From contig JAFQZR010000002.1 of the NCBI GenBank assembly GCA_017405785.1, positions 1 to 59,108 of the forward strand: 59,108 nt of DNA, written 5' to 3'. Within the stretch, counting starts at the first letter, position 1, and every line of letters begins with the position of its first letter. This DNA is from Erysipelotrichaceae bacterium (lineage in GTDB: Bacteria > Bacillota_I > Bacilli_A > Erysipelotrichales > Erysipelotrichaceae). The notes beneath the pieces are model-generated. The model had not been told where the DNA came from and did no database searches. It saw only the letters and a program-made list of their open reading frames with translations. This document shows positions 4,422 to 17,111 of the stretch, one piece after another. Position numbers and translations under genes: made by a program.

Positions 4422-7400
4422 ATGAAATTGAAAAAGTTCTTTGCCGGTTTGATGGCAGTGTTGATGTGCTTTAGTGCAGGTAATTTTGCTTATGCTGAGG
4501 AAGCAGAAACTTATGAAATGGAAGATAATGCCAAGTTTATGATAATTATCTCCTCACTATCACAGCAGCTCGGAACGACCGGTTCGGTAAAAGGTGTTGT
4601 ATACAATGACTATCACGGTGAACTGACAGTAACAGGTGAACAGGTCAATGACGGTAATGTCACCGTTGACCTGTGGATGCAGAATGTGGCTTCTCTGCAC
4701 GTTGATTCCTTAAGACACTATACAGCTTCAGTTAACAGAGAAAACGGTGTAGAACACGCCTTACGGACTCTGACAAGCGCTGTATTTGATGGGCTGATCG
4801 GAAAATCACTGACAGGCATCTGCGGTGATGCAAAAGCTACTTATACTATCAGTAAGTCCGAAGGTGATGAGTATAAACTGATCGCTGATGTTAAGGAAAA
4901 TGATGCCAGAGCATTATGGCAGGCTCTGATCAATGAGAATACAGTCAACTCATATACCGGTGAAGATAACAGTAAGATCATCATAGCTCATGGCTCCTGG
5001 ATCAATCTCGGGGATGAGAAACTGGTCTTTGAAGATGACTACAATAATGATCTCGTACTTGACGATTTCAATAAGCTGTCAGAAATGAAACAGGGAATGA
5101 AGGATGCTCTGAAGATCACAGAGGGTGACGGAAGCGTAACTATCTATCTTGAAAAAGGCAGCATTCTCTCTGTTGGCGAAAGCAAAGTTGAACTTCTTGA
5201 TGACTTAAGAGTAACTCTAAGCGTCGATGGTTCAGTATATCAGAGTGCTTTTACAGATATAAGCAAAGCTCCTGACGAAGAATTATTAGGCAAGATGTTC
5301 GGAATTCTTGTAAGAACCATAGATAATCTTGAGGAGAATACCGATGTGACATTTGAATTCGGCCATATATACACTCAGGAAGTCTCATACGAATGGTCAG
5401 AAGATTACAGCAAGGTAACCGCTACAGCCATATGTGACAATAATCCAGAGCATGTACTTACCGAAACAGTAAATACCACCAGCAAGGTCAGCAAGCCTGC
5501 TACCTGCCTGGAAAAAGGTGAAACTACATATACCGCAGAGTTTGAAAATGAAATATTCAAGACTCAGACCAAGACTGTGGTAAACATCGATCTTACCGGA
5601 CATACTGCTGGTGAACCAAAGCACGAAAACGAAGTAGAACCTACCTGTACAGAGGAAGGTTCATATGATGAAGTTGTCAGATGTACCGTCTGCAACGAGA
5701 TCATCTCAACTGAGCATAAGACAACTGCAGCATTAGGTCACAGCTGGGGTGAGTGGTCCGTTACAAAAGAGCCAACCTGCAGCGAAGAAGGCGAAGAGAC
5801 CAGAACATGCTCAAGATGCAATGCTAAGGAAACCAGATCTTTGGATAAAGTTGAACATGACTGGGATGATGGAAAGATCATTGTTGAACCTACATTCTCC
5901 AATACAGGTCTGATTGAGTACACCTGCAGAAAATGCGGAGAAAAGAAACAGGAAGAACTGCCTAAGGGCAAGGTCATCAACATGACTGTCGGCGGTGATG
6001 AATCATTCACGATTGCGGTCACTGAAGACAGGATCATGACATTTGTTCCTGAGAATGCTCAGATAGCCAATGCTGAAGTCATTTCCGTAGGAACGATGAC
6101 ATCTACATCAGGCACAAGATATACCAGAAAGATCAGAGTGATCGCTGACTCTGTCGGCTTCACCAAGATCGCCATGAAAGTCGGTAACAGTACACTGGCA
6201 TACATCTATGCAATAGTAACAGCCGGCAGCGAAGATGTCAGCGGCTGCGTAGGCGATACAAAAGTTTTAACTTTAATCACTTACAGCAACCAGTCATTCA
6301 AGGTTTCCGGTTCTGATGCCAAACTTTCTGTCAGCAAGGAAATGAAGATCATTAAAGTCTCCATGGGCAATGAGACAGTAGAAGCTCCGGCTTATTACAA
6401 CACTCTTACCGTGACATTTGAAAAGCCTGTAAATAATCAGAAGGTGGTTATTTCAACTGAAAAAGGTGAGGTCTACTACATTAATGCCAATATCTCAGAG
6501 CATTCCTGGGGCGGTTGGACATATGACGGTGAAGCTGCAAGAACACATACTCATGTATGCTCAAAAGATCCTTCTCATATCGAAACCAAGCCTTGCGAAT
6601 TTGATGACGGGGTCATCAACGGCAATACCATCATTTATACCTGCACAGTATGCGGCGGCACTTACAGGGAATACATTGAGAATCCGGAAGTCAACGGTGT
6701 AATAAGAGTCGCCGGTGATAACAGATTCGGTACCAGCCAGAAGATCGCCACGGCATACAGACGCAATGCTGGCCTGGAGAAGGTTGATGCAGTCATCCTG
6801 GCTAACGGTGATGTCTTTGCGGATGCTTTGGCCGGATCATATCTGGCAGCAGTAAAGGATGCTCCAATCATCATTACCAGAAGCGGTAAGGAAGCTGAAG
6901 TTAACGCCTATATCAGATCCATTCTGAAAGAAGGCGGAGCCATCTATGTATTAGGCGGTACCGCTGCTGTAGCTGAGTCGTGTCTGAGTGGACTGACAGG
7001 ACAGGGATATTCAATTACCAGACTCTGGGGTACCAACAGATATCTCACCAATCTGGACATTCTGGACTATATTGGCATTCAGGGTAATAAGATCCTGGTA
7101 GCTACGGGCAATAACTTTGCGGACTCCTTAAGCGCCTCCGCAACCGGATTACCGATTCTCCTGGTAAAGGATGCCGGACTGACTGATGAACAAAGAGAGT
7201 TCTTGGGAAGAAACATTGGTAAGGAATTCATTATCTTAGGTGGAACCAATGCGGTAAACAGCACAATTGAATCACAGCTGAAGTCATACGGAACTGTCAG
7301 AAGAATCCGGGGTGATAACAGAGCCAAGACATCAATTGAGATCGCTAAGGAATTCTTCCCTGAGGCCCAGCTGGCAGTTGTGGCATACTCTCATGAGTTC

Positions 7401-7613
7401 CCTGATGGCTTATGCGGAGGACCGTTGGCTTATCAGATCGATGCCCCGTTACTGCTGACAAGAGATCGGAATGCTGACGATACGGCAGCTTATCTGAGAT
7501 CCAAAGGCATTAATAACGGATATGTTCTGGGTGGAACGGTAAGACTGCAGGATTCACTGGTCAGAAAGGTATTCGGCCTTGATTCAACAGATACAATAAT
7601 TGAGTTTAAGTAA
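4422..7613 (+). CDS. Secreted cell-wall protein with three CWB2 repeats (paralogue 1)
   Basis: A 1063-residue protein. ATG 4422 is chosen because AGGAGG (4409-4414) sits 7 bases upstream and the product then opens with a signal peptide (MKLKKFF, hydrophobic core, likely cleavage after AYA, residue 25). The frame is open further upstream without a site. Residues about 35-320 form a module with the landmarks NDYHGELTV, DLWMQNV, VDSLRHY and LEKGSIL that recurs in the next gene; I do not recognise its family. Residues about 320-520 and 690-755 carry GHxW/CxxC repeats (GHSWGEW, TCSRCNA). Residues about 759-1063 are three cell wall binding type 2 repeats (PF04122 type) with FADALAGSYLA, FADSLSASA and FPDGLCGG. 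CWB2 repeats attach proteins non-covalently to wall polymers. It is a structural surface protein or adhesin; the ligand is unknown. Confidence 0.87.
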   Translation: MKLKKFFAGLMAVLMCFSAGNFAYAEEAETYEMEDNAKFMIIISSLSQQLGTTGSVKGVVYNDYHGELTVTGEQVNDGNVTVDLWMQNVASLHVDSLRHYTASVNRENGVEHALRTLTSAVFDGLIGKSLTGICGDAKATYTISKSEGDEYKLIADVKENDARALWQALINENTVNSYTGEDNSKIIIAHGSWINLGDEKLVFEDDYNNDLVLDDFNKLSEMKQGMKDALKITEGDGSVTIYLEKGSILSVGESKVELLDDLRVTLSVDGSVYQSAFTDISKAPDEELLGKMFGILVRTIDNLEENTDVTFEFGHIYTQEVSYEWSEDYSKVTATAICDNNPEHVLTETVNTTSKVSKPATCLEKGETTYTAEFENEIFKTQTKTVVNIDLTGHTAGEPKHENEVEPTCTEEGSYDEVVRCTVCNEIISTEHKTTAALGHSWGEWSVTKEPTCSEEGEETRTCSRCNAKETRSLDKVEHDWDDGKIIVEPTFSNTGLIEYTCRKCGEKKQEELPKGKVINMTVGGDESFTIAVTEDRIMTFVPENAQIANAEVISVGTMTSTSGTRYTRKIRVIADSVGFTKIAMKVGNSTLAYIYAIVTAGSEDVSGCVGDTKVLTLITYSNQSFKVSGSDAKLSVSKEMKIIKVSMGNETVEAPAYYNTLTVTFEKPVNNQKVVISTEKGEVYYINANISEHSWGGWTYDGEAARTHTHVCSKDPSHIETKPCEFDDGVINGNTIIYTCTVCGGTYREYIENPEVNGVIRVAGDNRFGTSQKIATAYRRNAGLEKVDAVILANGDVFADALAGSYLAAVKDAPIIITRSGKEAEVNAYIRSILKEGGAIYVLGGTAAVAESCLSGLTGQGYSITRLWGTNRYLTNLDILDYIGIQGNKILVATGNNFADSLSASATGLPILLVKDAGLTDEQREFLGRNIGKEFIILGGTNAVNSTIESQLKSYGTVRRIRGDNRAKTSIEIAKEFFPEAQLAVVAYSHEFPDGLCGGPLAYQIDAPLLLTRDRNADDTAAYLRSKGINNGYVLGGTVRLQDSLVRKVFGLDSTDTIIEFK

Positions 7614-7624
7614 AGATGTTACGA

Positions 7625-7659
7625 AGCACTTTCCATAACTGTGAAAAGTGCTTTTTTTG
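7625..7659 (+). terminator. Terminator of CWB2 paralogue 1
   Basis: AGCACTTT (7625-7632) pairs with AAAGTGCT (7645-7652) and is followed by a run of seven T. Confidence 0.8.
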
Positions 7660-7793
7660 AGGCTTTAAGTGCTGATGTGTGAATAATCATTTGCTTTGAA
7701 GGTTTGTAATTATAATATAAATAGATTATCATAGAAGTGATAAATATAGATTTGATCTATACGGGAAATAATAGAAAAGGAGCATTAGGTTTT

Positions 7794-10700
7794 ATGGGAT
7801 TTTCTAAAATGATAAAACAACTAATGAAGGTTTTATTAGTTGTTTTTATGTCGTTAACCGTAATAGTACCAGACGGTATTCTTACTGTTAGGGCAGAAGA
7901 GAACACTATCACAACCGATAAGGATGAATATGAGGTTGGAGAACCTATCTATGTCACAGCTTCTACCAGTTATAGTGGGGCATGGGTATCTATCATCGAA
8001 GAATCAGATGGATGGAATGCCACATCATACTACTGGTATTACGTTGATGGCAGAGAAGGAATATCTTCATATTACATCTGGAAAAATGGTGAAACTTACA
8101 ATATTTTTGATACATGCTGCAGTAAAAGAGGCGGTTATTCAAAGGGTTGGAATTTGCCAGCAGGTAATTATAAGGTCGCCATTCTGAAAGGTAATTATGA
8201 GCATGTTGTTCATAAGTCAATTACAATAGTTGATGGCACATCCGAAGAAAGCATCACTGCTGAGAAAACCACGTTTGCGGCAAATGAACCGGTAAACATT
8301 GTAACCAATACACATCATACTGATGGCAAGCCATATGTTGGTATTTATGCCGGAAAAGATACAACTACCGGTGATTTGTTGGCATGGTATTATGCATCGT
8401 TCTCAAATGGTATAACTGTTAATGCCAGACAGTTCTATGATTTTGCGGATGGTGATTATACCGCAGTTTTATATGGAGTTGATGAGAAATACGTCAGTTT
8501 CACAGTTGCTAAGGCAAATGATATAACACTGACTTTCGACAAGGAAGGAAACAAACCAGTATACAAATACGGTGAATCAGTCAATGTTACCATAGAAGAC
8601 TATGTTAACAGTGAAGCCTTTATCGGTGTTTATCCGGAAACAGCAGATTATGAGATTGATCAGGATTTCCTTTTCTTATGCAAACTGAATGGTAATGAGG
8701 TTACTGTCGATGTTGTTAAGGAAGCCAAGGACAGAGGTATTGATCTGACTCCTGGCAATTATATCGTACATTTATACAATCCTGACAGATTCAATCTGTT
8801 TACTTCTGATGGTTATGATGGAAACTCATGGGAAATTGTCAAGAGTAAGGCATTTACCATAGCTGTAACTTATGATGATGATCCTGATAACATTGAATGG
8901 ACATTATCTGAAGATCATACTGCTTCAACAATTACCCTAAAGCAGCTTGACGATCCTACCAAGACTGTTACTTATAATGCTGTTGTGGGAGATAAAGTGA
9001 CCGTAGAACCAACATGTACAGAAAAAGGCTCTGATACATATCCTGTAAGTTTCTCGTTCCCTGAAGGAGAAGAACTTGTTACTGTTAATGACACAACAGA
9101 ATTCACATATGACTTTGTTGAGGAAATAGCCGCATTAGATCATGACTGGGTATTCGATGGTTATGAGAGTAACGATAACAATACAACAGTATATGGTGAT
9201 TACACATGTTCTCGTTGTGATGACACCAAGCAGGAAGTAGTTTTATCTGTAGATAAGGCATCATACTCTGTTGATGAACCGGTAATGACCACTGTAAACT
9301 ATCCTAGCAATAACAGCCAGTGGGTGGGATTATATAAACTTGACGAATCATATAATCCAAACAGCGGTGGAGAAAAATCCATATTCTGGGCATATGTCAG
9401 TGAGGTAACCAGTCCGTTTGACATGCTGAAGACCAGAAATGAAAACGGCAGAGCCAGAGACTATGGTGGAGGCAAATATAAGATTGTTTTATTCAAGGAC
9501 GGTAACTATAACCCTGATATTTACGTCGAATTTGAAGTAAAACCATTCTCATCAATTACCACTGATAAAGACACTTATAAGTACGGAGAGAGTATTACCG
9601 TAACAACAACATCAGTATATGGTACTCCATGGGTTGGTTTATATGAATATGACAATAGTGATCCATTGAATGAAACCTTATTGAAATACTATTATCCTGA
9701 CAATGCTGAATATACTAAGGTAATACCTAGTGACTGGATTGATATCTTAGTTCCAGGACACTATAAGTTTATACTCTTTAAGTTTGATGATTATGTAATT
9801 GATGAAACAGAGGATAACGTTTTAACTATTAAGAGCTTTTTTGTAGAAAGAGTATATAAAGCTCCTGAAGTGGTTATTGCTGCTGATAATAGTAAGGCAA
9901 CATTCACATTTGTTCCAACTGACCCGGCAGGTGAGAACCTTGTTAAGGAAGTTGAAATGATTGGTGAGATCACCACACCTGCTACTTGTGAAGCTGATGG
10001 TGAAAAGACATACACTGCCGAACTTGACATGGGTGAAGGCTTCGTCTGTGAAAACGGTGAAACAGTGTTTACCGCAACAGCTACTGAAGTTGTTGAAAAG
10101 ACAGGCCATGACTGGAATGAACCAGAGTGGACATGGGATGATACAGATTCAGCAGTTGCCAAGTTCGTATGTAAGAATGATGAAGAACATGTAGTAGAAG
10201 TAAATGCTGAAATCAAATCATCTACAGATAACTACACTATTACTTATATCGCAACCGTAACCGGACCTGATGGTAAAGAATACACTGATACAAAGACTGC
10301 TGCTGAACTTGAAGATGATATGAAGTTCAGAATCAGAGTTTCATCAAGAGAAGGCGATAGTGTCGGCAGTGTGACTGCAACAGTATTTGCGGACTATCAC
10401 GGTGAAGTCGCCATCAAGGGTGACCTTGTAAACGAAAACAACGTTAAGGTTGAAATGTGGATGCAGAACGTCGGTTCATTAGGAGTTGACAGCTTAAGAT
10501 ACTACGGTACTGAGTTTGCTCCTAGTTCACAGAGTGTTCCTCATTCACTGGATACAATCAAGCCTTTATTTGAAGATCTGGTAGATAATACCCTCATCTG
10601 CATCAAGGTCGGTGAAGATTCTGTTACTTACAGTTTCGGTAAGGCCAGAAACAGATATACAATTGACCCAAGCAGTGAAGATAAGGCCCGCACTGTATGG

Positions 10701-12827
10701 CAGGACTTATTCAATGAAGAAACAATCGAAGTACTGTCAGAAGGCGATGAAGACAGCAGGATCTTTATCGCTGAAGGCTCATACATAATGATCAGAGAAG
10801 ACAGACTGCAGTTTGAAGAAGGTAAGGGCGGTCTGGAAATCAACGGCCTCAACGATCTTGAAGCCCTGGATAAGGTAATCAGAGATCATATTGAACTGGT
10901 AACTGAAGAAGGCAATGATACCGTTGAATTCTTCCTGGAAAAGGGAACGATCCTCAAGGTTGGCCAGAGCCAGGTCAAGCTGTTAAAGGAAGTCAAGGCT
11001 ACAGTTGATATCGATCCTGCAGCTCTGGAAGGTGAATTGGAGAAGTTCAGAGATCCGGAAGAAGGCAGCAGCCTTATCGGCCAGACCTTTGCATTAGTTC
11101 TGAAGGTCATGGGTGAGATTCAGGGCAAAAAGACAACAGTTACAATTGAATTAGGCCATGAAATGATCGCTCATGAAGCTGTTGAAGCAACCTGCACAGA
11201 AGAAGGTGTTGAAGCATATTGGGAATGCACAGTATGCGGCAAGCTGTTCGCTGACGAAAACGGTGATAAGGAAATCGAAGAACCGGTAATCATTGAAGCA
11301 TTAGGCCATGAAATCGTTCATCATGAAGCTGTTGAGGCAACATGTGAAGAAGACGGATGCAAGGAATACTGGGAATGCACAAAATGTGGTCTGTTATTCG
11401 CTGATGAAAAACTTGAAACCGAAGTCAAGGCAGAAGACTTAGTCATCGCTGCTATTGGCCATGACTGGGAAGAACCGACATATACATGGTCAGAAGATTA
11501 CTCAGAAGTAACAGCTACCAGAGTATGCAAGAACAATAAGGAACATAAGGAAACCGAAACTGTCAAGACAACTTCTGATGAAAAGAAGGCTACCTGTGAA
11601 AAAGCAGGTTCAATCACTTATACTGCTAAGTTCAAGAACAAAGCCTTCCGGAAGCAGACTGAAACTGTTACGGTTGAAGCTTTAGGACACCGGTGGGGTG
11701 AACCTGAATGGACATGGACTGAAGCCAAGGACGGCACTTTATCCGCAACGATCAAGTTCGTCTGTGCCAATGATGAAAAGCATGTCTACGAAGAAAAGGC
11801 TGAAGTAACAAGCACAGTTGATGGCGATACCATCAAGTATGAAGCAGTTGCCAAGGGACCGGATGGAAAAGAATACAAGGATACCAGGGAAGTCGTAAAG
11901 ACCGGTGTATTGCGTATCTATGGTGACAACAGATACGATACAGGCATGAAGGTCGCTGATTACCTGGCTGAATTAAAGGGTGTTGAAAAGTTTGACAACG
12001 TTGTCTTAACAACCGGACGGAATTTCCCTGATGCCTTAAGCGGTGCATATCTGGCAAATCAGTTAGGTGCTCCAATTCTGCTGATCAGAGACAACGACAA
12101 GACAATCAAGGATGTTCAGAAGTACATTGAAGAACATCTGAATGAAAGCGGTAAGATCTTCGTTCTTGGCGGTGTCAACGCCGTTAAGGATGAATGGTTA
12201 GGAGATCTGGCTAAGAAGTATACTGTTACAAGAGTACGGGGCAACAACAGATATCTGACCAACATTGATATCCTCAATAAGGCTGGCTACACTGGCGGTG
12301 ACATCTTAGTATGCACAGGCAAGGACTATGCAGACTCATTAAGCGGCTCTGCCGTAGATATGCCTATCCTGCTGGTTAACGATGCTTTAAGCAAAGAACA
12401 GAAAGAATACCTGGGCAAGATCAAGGGTGCTAAGTTCCATATCGTCGGCGGCAAGAACGCTGTAAGCGAAGCTGTTGAAAAAGAACTTGGCAAGTACGGT
12501 GAAGTAGTCGAAAGACTGGCTGGTGCCAACAGATATGATACTTCTGCATTACTGGCCAAGAAGTTCTTCCCGGAAGCCAGGAAGGCTGTTCTGGCTTATG
12601 GTGTCAACTTCCCTGATGGCTTATGCGGCGGTGTTATCGCAGCCCAGATGAATGCACCATTAATTGTTACTATTTCAACAGACCGTAAGTCATTTGCTGT
12701 AGACTTCTGCTCTGAACATTCAATTAAGTCAGGTATTGTCCTTGGCGGATCAGGCCTGATTGATGATGCAGCAGTCAGAAAGATCTTCGCAATGAGTGCA
12801 AAGGACACGATTGAAATCTATAAATAG
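7794..12827 (+). CDS. Very large secreted cell-wall protein with three CWB2 repeats (paralogue 2)
   Basis: A 1677-residue protein. ATG 7794 is preferred because AAAGGAG (7776-7782) lies 11 bases upstream. A GTG at 7737 is in frame but has no site and lies close behind a TATAAT at 7711. The signal peptide ends near VRA (residue 34). Five related repeats of about 100 residues follow (starting near residues 40, 150, 243, 482 and 588). Each has a TxDKxxYxxGE opening, a WVGLY-like strand and a YKxxLFK-like strand, which suggests beta-sandwich folds. Residues about 839-1119 repeat the paralogue 1 module (ADYHGEVAI, MWMQNVGSLGVDSLRYY, FFLEKGTIL). GHxW/CxxC repeats run to about 1372, and the C-terminal 305 residues are three CWB2 repeats. 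It probably forms an extended wall-attached surface structure. Confidence 0.87.
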   Translation: MGFSKMIKQLMKVLLVVFMSLTVIVPDGILTVRAEENTITTDKDEYEVGEPIYVTASTSYSGAWVSIIEESDGWNATSYYWYYVDGREGISSYYIWKNGETYNIFDTCCSKRGGYSKGWNLPAGNYKVAILKGNYEHVVHKSITIVDGTSEESITAEKTTFAANEPVNIVTNTHHTDGKPYVGIYAGKDTTTGDLLAWYYASFSNGITVNARQFYDFADGDYTAVLYGVDEKYVSFTVAKANDITLTFDKEGNKPVYKYGESVNVTIEDYVNSEAFIGVYPETADYEIDQDFLFLCKLNGNEVTVDVVKEAKDRGIDLTPGNYIVHLYNPDRFNLFTSDGYDGNSWEIVKSKAFTIAVTYDDDPDNIEWTLSEDHTASTITLKQLDDPTKTVTYNAVVGDKVTVEPTCTEKGSDTYPVSFSFPEGEELVTVNDTTEFTYDFVEEIAALDHDWVFDGYESNDNNTTVYGDYTCSRCDDTKQEVVLSVDKASYSVDEPVMTTVNYPSNNSQWVGLYKLDESYNPNSGGEKSIFWAYVSEVTSPFDMLKTRNENGRARDYGGGKYKIVLFKDGNYNPDIYVEFEVKPFSSITTDKDTYKYGESITVTTTSVYGTPWVGLYEYDNSDPLNETLLKYYYPDNAEYTKVIPSDWIDILVPGHYKFILFKFDDYVIDETEDNVLTIKSFFVERVYKAPEVVIAADNSKATFTFVPTDPAGENLVKEVEMIGEITTPATCEADGEKTYTAELDMGEGFVCENGETVFTATATEVVEKTGHDWNEPEWTWDDTDSAVAKFVCKNDEEHVVEVNAEIKSSTDNYTITYIATVTGPDGKEYTDTKTAAELEDDMKFRIRVSSREGDSVGSVTATVFADYHGEVAIKGDLVNENNVKVEMWMQNVGSLGVDSLRYYGTEFAPSSQSVPHSLDTIKPLFEDLVDNTLICIKVGEDSVTYSFGKARNRYTIDPSSEDKARTVWQDLFNEETIEVLSEGDEDSRIFIAEGSYIMIREDRLQFEEGKGGLEINGLNDLEALDKVIRDHIELVTEEGNDTVEFFLEKGTILKVGQSQVKLLKEVKATVDIDPAALEGELEKFRDPEEGSSLIGQTFALVLKVMGEIQGKKTTVTIELGHEMIAHEAVEATCTEEGVEAYWECTVCGKLFADENGDKEIEEPVIIEALGHEIVHHEAVEATCEEDGCKEYWECTKCGLLFADEKLETEVKAEDLVIAAIGHDWEEPTYTWSEDYSEVTATRVCKNNKEHKETETVKTTSDEKKATCEKAGSITYTAKFKNKAFRKQTETVTVEALGHRWGEPEWTWTEAKDGTLSATIKFVCANDEKHVYEEKAEVTSTVDGDTIKYEAVAKGPDGKEYKDTREVVKTGVLRIYGDNRYDTGMKVADYLAELKGVEKFDNVVLTTGRNFPDALSGAYLANQLGAPILLIRDNDKTIKDVQKYIEEHLNESGKIFVLGGVNAVKDEWLGDLAKKYTVTRVRGNNRYLTNIDILNKAGYTGGDILVCTGKDYADSLSGSAVDMPILLVNDALSKEQKEYLGKIKGAKFHIVGGKNAVSEAVEKELGKYGEVVERLAGANRYDTSALLAKKFFPEARKAVLAYGVNFPDGLCGGVIAAQMNAPLIVTISTDRKSFAVDFCSEHSIKSGIVLGGSGLIDDAAVRKIFAMSAKDTIEIYK

Positions 12828-12855: not shown

Positions 12856-12889
12856 AATGAGAGCAGGTACACCTGTACCTGCTCTCATT
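12856..12889 (+). terminator. Perfect 15-bp hairpin between CWB2 paralogues 2 and 3
   Basis: Bases 12856-12870 and 12875-12889 are fully complementary around an ACCT loop. Downstream is AAGTAG rather than a T run, so rho-independent termination would be weak. It may act as a partial terminator or a 3'-end stabiliser. A smaller ACTCA/TGAGT pair precedes it at 12834-12850. No promoter is obvious before the next gene. Confidence 0.55.
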
Positions 12890-12944: not shown

Positions 12945-15900
12945 ATGAACAAATACATTTATAGCAAACCTAAGGCTAAAAAGATCATTACTACTATTAT
13001 AGTTTGTGTAATGCTTCTTTTAGGTACTTTGTCTTCCGGTAATATTGTTTCGGCAGCTGATACGGAAGCAACATGGACAGTTGGAAGTAACACATATACC
13101 AGTCTGTCAGCAGCCATATCTGCAGCAGGCAGCAGTGGTACTATTAAACTGGCATCTGATGGGGTATTGAGTGCCGGTACGTATACAATTCCAAGCGGAG
13201 TAAAGGTCATAATTCCTTACAATGCTTCTTCAAATACCACTCCGGGAAATAAACCTTCCTATGTGGGAAACAGTTATACGACACCTTCACCGTTCCGTAC
13301 CTTAACAATGGCATCAGGGGCCAATATAATCGTATCAAATAACGCAAAACTGCTTGTTGACGGGCGATATTCAGCGATGGGTCAGGCTAATGGTTATAAC
13401 GGAACACCGACCGGTCCTTACGGAAAGATCATTATGGCCCGGGACAGTTCCATTACCATTCAAAGCGGTGGTGAGCTTGATGCCTACGGTTACATAACCG
13501 GTTCGAATAATACTTCAGGAACAGAAAGCGGTACCGTTACTGCCTTATCCGGAGCAACAGTCAGGGAATACATGCAGATCAAGGATTTCCGCGGCGGTTC
13601 AGCGACTCTTAATATTGTTAACAATCATTCAAATAAGGTATTCCCGTTTTCTCAGTATTATATTCAGAATGTTGAAGTACCTCTGAATCTTTATGCCGGA
13701 TCTCATGATTACGTATACAGCGGGATATATGTATCTCTGCTGGGTACTCAGGAAACAGGAGCAGTTGAACTCTTCGGAAGCAGCGGTTCCAAAGGAATGT
13801 TCATAATAAAGTCCGGCTTTATCAGAAAAACATACATTTCCAGTGAGGACAGATTATGTATTGACGTCAACGGTGATGTTGAACTGAACAGTTTCAGCTT
13901 TAAGGTTTATTACACCATAAATACCAGCGAATATGTCATGCCTTTAACCAATAACATGACACTTAATCTGAAGAGCGGAACGACAACCGTTAATCAGGAT
14001 TCATCATTGCTGCCTGGTGTCAGGCTCAATATTGATGAAGGTGCAACACTGAAAGTTTCCAGTGCTAAAAATGTCTATGTCTATGATGTGAATACTTGGA
14101 ATGCCGGACAGTACGTTATTCCGGTAGATGCTAATTCCCATTTTTATCAGCTGAATTATGTTGCTGCCATAAACGGAGCACCTGTACGACGTACACTTGA
14201 TAATGTGATCATTGACAATAACGGTTTGATTGACATTCAGGGCAGTATGTATTCCACATCGGAGAGAACAGTAGTATCTTCTTCAGAGGGGACAGGTGTT
14301 GTCAAGTTCAGTACTGCTGCTCCAGCTGATGGAACAACTTATCAGATAACCCAGGAGGGAACAAACGTCAGTTATGTTTCTATCGGGGTAACATCACTGG
14401 TGCTGACCAACGGTGACAATACTACAACATTAACAAAAGGATCTGCTGCCGGTACAGAGTATTTCTACTGCCAGACACATAACAAATGGGAAAAGGCTCC
14501 GTATCATACTATTACATTCGATCCTAATGGCGGCAGCGGAGATCCATATACCCAGCTGATCTGTCAGAGTCAGTGTCAGTTGATTCCTAATCAGTTTACC
14601 AGAGAAGGATATACCTTTGATGGCTGGAACACAAAAGCAGACGGCAGCGGAACTGCGTATGCAGATCAGGGTAACATAACATCTTCTACTGATTTAACTC
14701 TATATGCTCAGTGGAAAATACATAACCACACATATGAGGTTGTCCAGTGGCGCTGGAATGGATTTACATCAGCGGAAGTGGATGTCAGATGTACTGAAGA
14801 TAATACTCATACAGCTGTTCTACCGGCCACTATAACCAGTGAGATAATTTCAGAACCAACATGTACTGAAGCGGGTTCAAAGGTTTATACCGCAACCGCG
14901 ACTTATCAGAGTCAGACATTTACTGATCCTAAGATAGAAGTTTTAAATGCTCTGGGACATGATCTTGTTTATTCTGAAGAAATATCTACGTCATGTGAAG
15001 AAGACGGTGTGGCTGCTCATTATCAGTGCAGCAGATGCCTGAAACTGTTCAGAGATGCTGAAGGCAACCAGGAAGTTACAGAATCTGAACTTGTCATTAC
15101 CAGAACAGGACATAACTGGGAGTTTGTTGATTTCAGCTGGGATGGTTATGAAAGTGCGATTGCCAACTATAAGTGCCTGAACGACAGCTCTCATACAACG
15201 ACAGAAGCAGCTACTGTAGAGATAGGTGAATCGCAGGCAGCTACTTGTGAGACTGATGGATACAATGTCTATACTGCAGTAATATCTGCAACATCAAGTC
15301 CTGACGGGAAAGAACATACCGAGACTAAACAGGAACCGATTCCTCGGTCAGGGCACAGTTGGGGCGAATGGACTGTTACCAAAGAAGCAACCTGTGAAGA
15401 AACAGGCATAAGATCCAGAACATGTCTCAACTGTGGAAATACAGTAACAGAAGAGATTCCGGCTGTCGGTCATAAATCCGGTGAACCTGTACAGGAAAAC
15501 ATTGTTTCGGCAACATGTACGTCACGAGGATCTTACGATGAAGCGGTATACTGTACTGTATGTGGTAAAGAGTTAAGCAGACAGACAGTTTACACCGAGC
15601 CAACAGGTCATAAATGGCTGGAACCTGAATACATCTGGTCATCAGATAATTCTAAGGTAACTGCCACCAGAGTATGTGAACATGATAATACTCATATAGA
15701 AACAGATACAGCAGAAGTTAAGACAGAAGTAACCGAACCAACCTGTGAAGAAGCAGGCTGGATCAGGTATTCTGCTGAATTCAAAAATGATGCTTTCCGG
15801 AAGCAGACAAAAGAGGAATCCTATGGATCACCTAAGGGACACACACCGTCACAGTCTGTAAAGGAAAACGAAACACATCCTGACTGTGAAAATGCCGGAG

Positions 15901-17111
15901 GCTATGACGAAGTAGTTTACTGTACAGTATGTAAGAAAGAAATAAGCCGAAATCATATAACCATTGAAGCTTTGGGTCACATCTGGCAGTTTGACGGTTT
16001 CATCTGGTCTTCCGGTTACAGCAGTGTTGAAGGCAGGTTTGTCTGTGAAAGAGACAGAAGCCATGTAACAGTGGTTTCCGGTGAAGTCGACAGGCAGGAA
16101 GCAGGTAATAAAATAACGTTTACAGGCACTGTAAAGGGTCCTGACGGCATCACTTACAGCGAAACCAGAGAAGTATCAGTGAATAATGAAATAATAAGAG
16201 TATATGGATCTAACAGATATTACACTGGTTTGAAAACCTCAGAATACCTGAAGGAAACAAGACATACCGAAAAGTATGACAGAATCGTCATTACCACCGG
16301 CAGCAATTTCGCTGATGCCTTAGCCGGATCATATCTGGCCAATAAATACAATGCACCGGTCATACTCATGTCTGACACATCAGCCGGAGCGTTTAATGAC
16401 ATCATCAGTCAGATCAATGACAGCATCTCGGACAACGGCAAGGTGTATATCCTTGGCGGTACCGGTGCCATTCCTGATGAACGGTTAAATGGAATAAAAC
16501 GGACAAAAGAAAGAATCCGGGGAGCCAACAGATATCTGACTAATATTAATATTCTGAAGAAGGTTGGATATAACGGCGGTGAAATACTGGTATGTACAGG
16601 TACGGGTTTCGCTGATTCCTTAAGTGCCTCTGCCGTTGATCTGCCGATCTTGCTGGTAAAAGATAAGCTGACAGATGATCAGAAAGTCTATCTGAAACAG
16701 TTTGATGATATCAGATTCATCATCATCGGCGGTACCAGTGCCGTAAGCAGTGCTATGGAGAAAGAACTGGCCCAGTATGGAACAGTACAGGAAAGAATAG
16801 CCGGTTCCAACAGATTTGCGACATCGGCCGCCATTGCGGCAAGATTCTTCCCTGATGCCAATAACGCCGTGCTGGCTTATGGCAGGAATTATCCGGACGG
16901 ATTAAGCGGGGGACCGCTGGCCTATACGTTAAAAGCACCTCTCTTGTTAGTCGAATCTGTTGACAACAACATAGCTGAGGCTGCACAATATTGTACGGAC
17001 AGAAATATTAAGTCCGGAACGGTATTGGGCGGATCCTCACTGATCAGTGATGAGTATGTCAGAAAGATATTCCATCTGAAATCCGATGCTATCATAAAAG
17101 TATTTGATTAG
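12945..17111 (+). CDS. Large secreted cell-wall protein with three CWB2 repeats (paralogue 3)
   Basis: A 1388-residue protein; ATG 12945 has GGAGAG 7 bases upstream. The signal peptide ends near VSA (residue 37). Residues about 40-510 are Ser/Thr/Gly/Asn-rich with alternating short strands (for example KVIIPYNASSN, IIVSNNAKLLVDG, SITIQSGGELDAYGYI). This resembles a right-handed beta-helix and is unrelated in sequence to paralogues 1 and 2. Residues about 520-593 form a Listeria-Bacteroides repeat (FDPNGGSGD, YTFDGWNTKADGSG). GHxW/CxxC repeats fill about 594-1080, and three CWB2 repeats (FADALAGSYLA, FADSLSASA, YPDGLSGG) form the end. It is probably a wall-bound adhesin with a different binding head on the same anchor. 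The stop codon lies only 13 bases before the queT start. Confidence 0.87.
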   Translation: MNKYIYSKPKAKKIITTIIVCVMLLLGTLSSGNIVSAADTEATWTVGSNTYTSLSAAISAAGSSGTIKLASDGVLSAGTYTIPSGVKVIIPYNASSNTTPGNKPSYVGNSYTTPSPFRTLTMASGANIIVSNNAKLLVDGRYSAMGQANGYNGTPTGPYGKIIMARDSSITIQSGGELDAYGYITGSNNTSGTESGTVTALSGATVREYMQIKDFRGGSATLNIVNNHSNKVFPFSQYYIQNVEVPLNLYAGSHDYVYSGIYVSLLGTQETGAVELFGSSGSKGMFIIKSGFIRKTYISSEDRLCIDVNGDVELNSFSFKVYYTINTSEYVMPLTNNMTLNLKSGTTTVNQDSSLLPGVRLNIDEGATLKVSSAKNVYVYDVNTWNAGQYVIPVDANSHFYQLNYVAAINGAPVRRTLDNVIIDNNGLIDIQGSMYSTSERTVVSSSEGTGVVKFSTAAPADGTTYQITQEGTNVSYVSIGVTSLVLTNGDNTTTLTKGSAAGTEYFYCQTHNKWEKAPYHTITFDPNGGSGDPYTQLICQSQCQLIPNQFTREGYTFDGWNTKADGSGTAYADQGNITSSTDLTLYAQWKIHNHTYEVVQWRWNGFTSAEVDVRCTEDNTHTAVLPATITSEIISEPTCTEAGSKVYTATATYQSQTFTDPKIEVLNALGHDLVYSEEISTSCEEDGVAAHYQCSRCLKLFRDAEGNQEVTESELVITRTGHNWEFVDFSWDGYESAIANYKCLNDSSHTTTEAATVEIGESQAATCETDGYNVYTAVISATSSPDGKEHTETKQEPIPRSGHSWGEWTVTKEATCEETGIRSRTCLNCGNTVTEEIPAVGHKSGEPVQENIVSATCTSRGSYDEAVYCTVCGKELSRQTVYTEPTGHKWLEPEYIWSSDNSKVTATRVCEHDNTHIETDTAEVKTEVTEPTCEEAGWIRYSAEFKNDAFRKQTKEESYGSPKGHTPSQSVKENETHPDCENAGGYDEVVYCTVCKKEISRNHITIEALGHIWQFDGFIWSSGYSSVEGRFVCERDRSHVTVVSGEVDRQEAGNKITFTGTVKGPDGITYSETREVSVNNEIIRVYGSNRYYTGLKTSEYLKETRHTEKYDRIVITTGSNFADALAGSYLANKYNAPVILMSDTSAGAFNDIISQINDSISDNGKVYILGGTGAIPDERLNGIKRTKERIRGANRYLTNINILKKVGYNGGEILVCTGTGFADSLSASAVDLPILLVKDKLTDDQKVYLKQFDDIRFIIIGGTSAVSSAMEKELAQYGTVQERIAGSNRFATSAAIAARFFPDANNAVLAYGRNYPDGLSGGPLAYTLKAPLLLVESVDNNIAEAAQYCTDRNIKSGTVLGGSSLISDEYVRKIFHLKSDAIIKVFD

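Follow-up and report, generated by a model that had tools for sequence, protein, structure and literature searches.

The window, the whole 59,108-nucleotide stretch of DNA analysed here, carries on its forward strand three genes for CWB2 surface proteins, which we call P1, P2, and P3. P1 (4422..7613; 1063 amino acids) is an open reading frame that starts at an ATG at 4422, preceded by the ribosome-binding site AGGAGG, and comprises a signal peptide, one copy of the module described below, Cys-containing linker repeats, and three CWB2 repeats. P2 (7794..12827; 1677 amino acids from the ATG at 7794, its most likely start) has the same components together with an N-terminal extension of about 800 residues built of other repeats. 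P3 (12945..17111; 1388 amino acids) adjoins P2 and carries a head that recurs as a partner of the module in other genomes; sequence comparison did not find the module in P3. The Pfam family CW_binding_2 (PF04122) matches P1 in three stretches (E 1.9e-45; matches at 6705, 7020, and 7302 within 6705..7556) and P2 likewise (E 2.7e-47; 11913..12770). The CWB2 repeats contain a PILL-type motif of Pro with three Ile/Leu/Val (APIII, LPILL, and APLLL in P1; APILL, MPILL, and APLIV in P2), and both C-termini consist of these repeats and not of a sortase-type signal. Against the SlpA model NF033435, P1 scored 73.8 and P2 49.6 bits (cut-off 650), via the CWB2 part only. The signal peptides predict that the module proteins are secreted.

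Directly behind the module lie linker repeats of the type C..N..H ... TC..G ... GH, at 5367..5987 in P1 and at 11160..11861 in P2, the latter delimited by sequence and by alignment with P1 and other CWB2 proteins. The type is common to P1, P2, P3, and further CWB2 proteins, and the P1 stretch matched no Pfam family above its cut-off. Its fuller pattern, WSEDxSxVTAxxxCxxDxxH ... TCEExG ... TQTKTVEIPALGH, also occurs within 12945-17111 and at loci L014, L021, L111, and L118; it is present in many CWB2 and SLH proteins, with more than 10 copies in the head protein of L023, and had no consistent Pfam family. The P2 extension (7794-10200, residues 1-800) is composed of repeated beta units (TDKDxYxxGExIxVT...), to which repeats in L118 are related, and it gives a partial match to the alpha-2-macroglobulin bait region (E 1e-5). 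Shortly behind P2 is a perfect hairpin, GAGCAGG...CCTGCTC (12860-12887), without a clear T-run, and a similar one lies behind the L021 module gene at about 11320-11347. Matches to Sigma-70 promoters were no better than those in shuffled sequence and were discarded. By eye, the heads of the CWB2 proteins encoded in the 1.96-Mb genome of the window include leucine-rich and CotH-like types. The 57 CWB2 repeats of this genome make up 19 proteins with three repeats each, and about eight of the 19, by a rough pattern, have the linker type, carrying other heads. The module occurs only in P1 and P2 of these 19, which would argue for an interchange of heads on CWB2 proteins.

The first module copy lies at 4527..5366 (P1 residues 36-315; profile E 4.7e-109) and the second at 10317..11159 (P2 residues 842-1122), where both BLASTP and the profile match it. 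The two copies, of about 280 residues each, align over 288 columns with 35% identity and 60% positives (BLASTP, two-sequence comparison, E 2e-51), and their raw score is 414, whereas 500 shuffles never exceeded 69. The unit of about 280 residues that the sequence-only reading saw in two neighbouring CWB2 proteins is thus real, and the borders it gave, 35-320 in P1 and 839-1119 in P2, fit those found here. These borders are constant across the family: most copies open with D or N, one residue, and then K-F or K-V, and close with ...GH, after which linker repeats follow.

The same reading took the module to be mobile because it is N-terminal in one protein and internal in the other. In ORF numbering, P1 residues 47-526 pair with P2 residues 849-1298, and 717-1086 pair with 1318-1696; the alignment thus continues past the module into the linker and anchor, and the C-terminal half of P2 is co-linear with P1. 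Because this alignment runs through module, linker, and anchor, the pair taken alone is explained by gene duplication together with an N-terminal extension of P2, or the loss of that extension from P1, and the difference between the two most plausibly reflects that extension rather than a jump by the module. In a tree of module copies, the two from the window are sisters (support 97/99); with the co-linearity, this weakens the positional argument. The six copies of L021 also form one group, and a deep group of its own (100/99) unites the N-terminal copies of L019, L022, and L024; these groupings indicate that copies multiply inside proteins and that an older N-terminal type exists. Pairwise dN/dS within L021 was 0.12-0.30, which points to probable purifying selection between copies, and was 0.42 between the window copies; many dS values were near saturation. 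For the family at large, mobility is borne out by anchors of either SLH or CWB2 type, copy numbers of one to six, patchy presence, and a genome placed outside the host family by RpoB.

A profile of the two window copies recovered a further three genomes of the host order, and in all we found 16 further copies in six other MAGs, each with one locus: L019 (two copies), L020 (three), L021 (six), L022 (three, one cut), L023 (one, cut), and L024 (one, cut), some being clipped by contig ends. L019, L022, and L023 came up in both the genome search and the later contig scan and are not additional finds. Together with the two window copies these form an 18-member set, which includes the cut copies. Copy number per protein ranges from one to six, the six alternating with linkers in an open frame of 3763 residues. 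The window and L021 proteins have CWB2 anchors, the L019 protein an SLH anchor. The MAG titles at the module loci name Erysipelotrichaceae and Solobacterium, with rumen or duodenum samples as the source of some of these, and otherwise Faecalibacterium, Peptostreptococcaceae (reindeer), and Bacillota. The module is rare, being present in 4 of 272 genomes of the host family and in 1 of 392 genomes of a wider sample, and in none of eight congeners, one of which has a 94.6% identical RpoB. In congeners, the gene behind P3 adjoins other genes, and the neighbourhood in G005 includes a CWB2 protein of 1807 amino acids without the module. Class and phylum samples held no other genome with the module, weak noise aside; the weak matches in G452 and G512 (E 0.004-0.008, 68 positions) were taken as such noise. 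Viral contigs, phages, and plasmids contained no relative of the module. In an RpoB tree the L021 genome falls outside the host family, whose clade has support of 100/100; a MAG bin may, however, be contaminated. RpoB is about 1320-1410 residues long in the host family versus about 1220 in the L021 genome and matches its model in more separate pieces, which suggests family-specific insertions.

That no recognised family covers the module was also borne out. Pfam and NCBIfam gave no domain above cut-off for the P1 and P2 copies; when the 18 members were scanned singly against Pfam, NCBIfam, and PHROGs, no family matched more than one member (best E 0.002-0.006) and no described domain passed its cut-off; and a profile of the 18 members had no match among PDB sequences up to E 10. 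Matches to the ATP synthase delta chain, obtained with a two-sequence profile (E 0.02), vanished with 18 sequences and were attributed to chance. We found no published description of the module in the open-licence literature, and the family has apparently gone unnamed. The module is a genuine extracellular domain family.

With the P2 copy as query and the 18 sequences as alignment, AlphaFold2 produced a beta-rich model with a few helices over 281 residues (pLDDT 87.1, pTM 0.81); prediction from two sequences had been too poor for use (pLDDT 36). This confident stand-alone model, the tandem copies with constant borders, and the lack of a curated family agree with the earlier description of the module as an independently folding unit. 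A comparison with hhalign for an internal duplication, in which a beta-beta-beta-beta-alpha unit would occur twice (about residues 147-191 and 203-268), gave P 2.5e-4 and a probability of 43%, and is suggestive only. Foldseek searches of the PDB returned nothing at E 0.001 or better, and viral structure models nothing better than E 0.01; fluorescent-protein-like Foldseek rows were discarded (TM about 0.1, rmsd 18 Å). The best VIA-align result reached Z 4.3 over 64 residues at 4.5 Å, with the parts beyond residues 1-126 barely tested, and its top row, Mago nashi, was within the range of unrelated models. On the basis of this model and the PDB and viral models searched, a new fold is possible. 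The module might instead be a divergent version of a known fold, missed as the search covered the PDB and viral models, a reading compatible with any of the roles considered below. In its favour, a middling VIA-align Z proves nothing where much of the domain was hardly compared; a confident model of 281 residues that lacks a Foldseek match, the short best alignment, and the failure of any PDB sequence or family model to match the profile or two members speak against it, and we regard it as a real contender that is nonetheless less likely than not.

Across the 18 copies, conservation is highest at W128, Y105, N42, K3, S10, S54, M49, Y27, R61, and N51, and the most conserved stretch is residues 48-61 (WMxNVxSLGVxxxR). 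In the model this stretch forms a turn of lower confidence than its surroundings (mean pLDDT 74 over residues 51-60 versus 89-94 over residues 1-50), and the 18 copies have no invariant enzyme-like set of Asp, Glu, His, or Cys. Because of these two features, binding appears likelier than catalysis, as judged from sequence and model; the conserved loop may, however, be structural rather than functional. K3 and N42 are invariant in 18 of 18 copies (the Lys3 codon is at 4533-4535 and 10323-10325), and an isopeptide bond between them of the CnaA/CnaB type, which pairs Lys and Asn with a nearby Asp or Glu, is conceivable.

The repetition of the module would equally fit a passive spacer role, in which rigid beads and linkers together build a stalk that keeps other heads away from the cell wall. 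The alternation of up to six copies with linkers, the lack of an invariant catalytic-looking residue set, and a C-terminal GH border whose register agrees with that of the linker repeats, which also end in ...GH, are what such a bead would lead one to expect. Yet P1 has only the module beyond its linkers and so has no head to display, linkers already fill the stalk role in module-free CWB2 proteins, and a loop at 48-61 kept down to about 30% overall identity exceeds the needs of a spacer. We consider a purely passive role unlikely.

The recurrent partner of the module is the head of P3 (13149..14495), a region of about 450 residues with 42-52% identity to heads near the module gene in L021 (12911-14239), L019 (2183-3505), and L023 (2024-3328), and found also in L135. 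It had no Pfam match above cut-off and no PDB sequence match, and its repeated short strands suggest a putative beta-helix. The head gene is directly upstream of the module gene in L019 (1337-5995) and L023 (1190-7801), and downstream of it in the window and in L021, there with one 234-residue ORF between; the two genes share a strand at all four loci, which are also all the loci (4/4) with both on one contig. In L020, L022, and L024 the contig ends within the module gene, and in the L024 genome the head is on another contig, whose end falls at the head gene start. The assemblies G786 and G788 contain no partner head, and their module genes run off contig ends (G180/G788 and G786 are module genomes). 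Among the 272 family genomes the head occurs in 7, the module in 4, and both in 3 (Fisher P 4.2e-5, with relatedness ignored and with head and module profiles both built partly from genomes counted in the test); in four other family genomes the head was seen but no module was detected. In L019 both the module protein and its neighbour are SLH proteins, and in the window both are CWB2 proteins. That the module is an assembly domain, pairing either with the P3-type head or with further copies of itself to build a two-protein surface layer or fibre with no outside ligand, would suit the two recurring gene orders and the matching anchors. It seems doubtful given heads in genomes with no detected module, a neighbourhood that common descent, or the transfer of a single cluster, could hold together, and an anchor match drawn from two loci, as one pair member is clipped by the contig end in L021 and L023 and the L023 head protein carries DUF4214 instead.

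We infer a ligand-binding or assembly domain, as the sequence-only reading had proposed, and of the two roles we favour binding. The sequences show module proteins with Cys-containing linkers and with CWB2 or SLH repeats that anchor them to the cell wall, and their signal peptides predict secretion. Being the only domain of P1 apart from linker and anchor, the module would most likely be the distal working part of that protein; candidate ligands are glycans of host or food origin, mucin-like proteins, and surface polymers. Tandem copies in relatives would then provide multivalent binding of higher avidity, and because the head is encoded near the module gene in other genomes too, the module protein would probably cooperate with the neighbouring P3-type protein. 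We give this reading of an extracellular domain family that binds a ligand as a distal, multivalent unit, probably working with a P3-type protein, a probability of roughly 0.45. A more far-reaching version, in which a fold not yet described and a P3-type head form a two-protein surface apparatus whose gene cluster moves from one gut bacterium to another, with CWB2 and SLH anchors exchanged to suit each host, strikes us as improbable. Many gut Bacillota have surfaces dressed with CWB2 and SLH proteins, and the working parts of most of these are obscure; the family described here, apparently unnamed and stably modelled, offers an alignment of 18 copies, candidate residues marked by conservation, and a partner gene that recurs, which makes both ligand and partnership directly testable.

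Multi-copy Gram-positive adhesins present arrays of a varying number of repeats or heads, borne by a stalk and a cell-wall anchor. The module proteins resemble them in the variable number of units on stalk and anchor, and differ in that no known adhesin domain was found above cut-off and in that P1 and P2 end in CWB2 repeats, not a sortase-type signal. SLH-anchored surface proteins are like the L019 module protein and its neighbour; the window proteins differ in being anchored by CWB2 and not SLH. The Cwp family of Clostridioides difficile, with 29 cwp genes and a PILL motif in the CWB2 repeats (PMC5842191), is likewise made up of secreted proteins with three CWB2 repeats, a variable functional region, and many paralogues, of which the window genome has 19 proteins. 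The CWB2 repeats of P1 share the Pro with three Ile/Leu/Val, as in PILL (PMC5842191), whereas the functional region of P1 and P2 differs from that of the Cwp proteins in being the module, joined by Cys-containing linkers.
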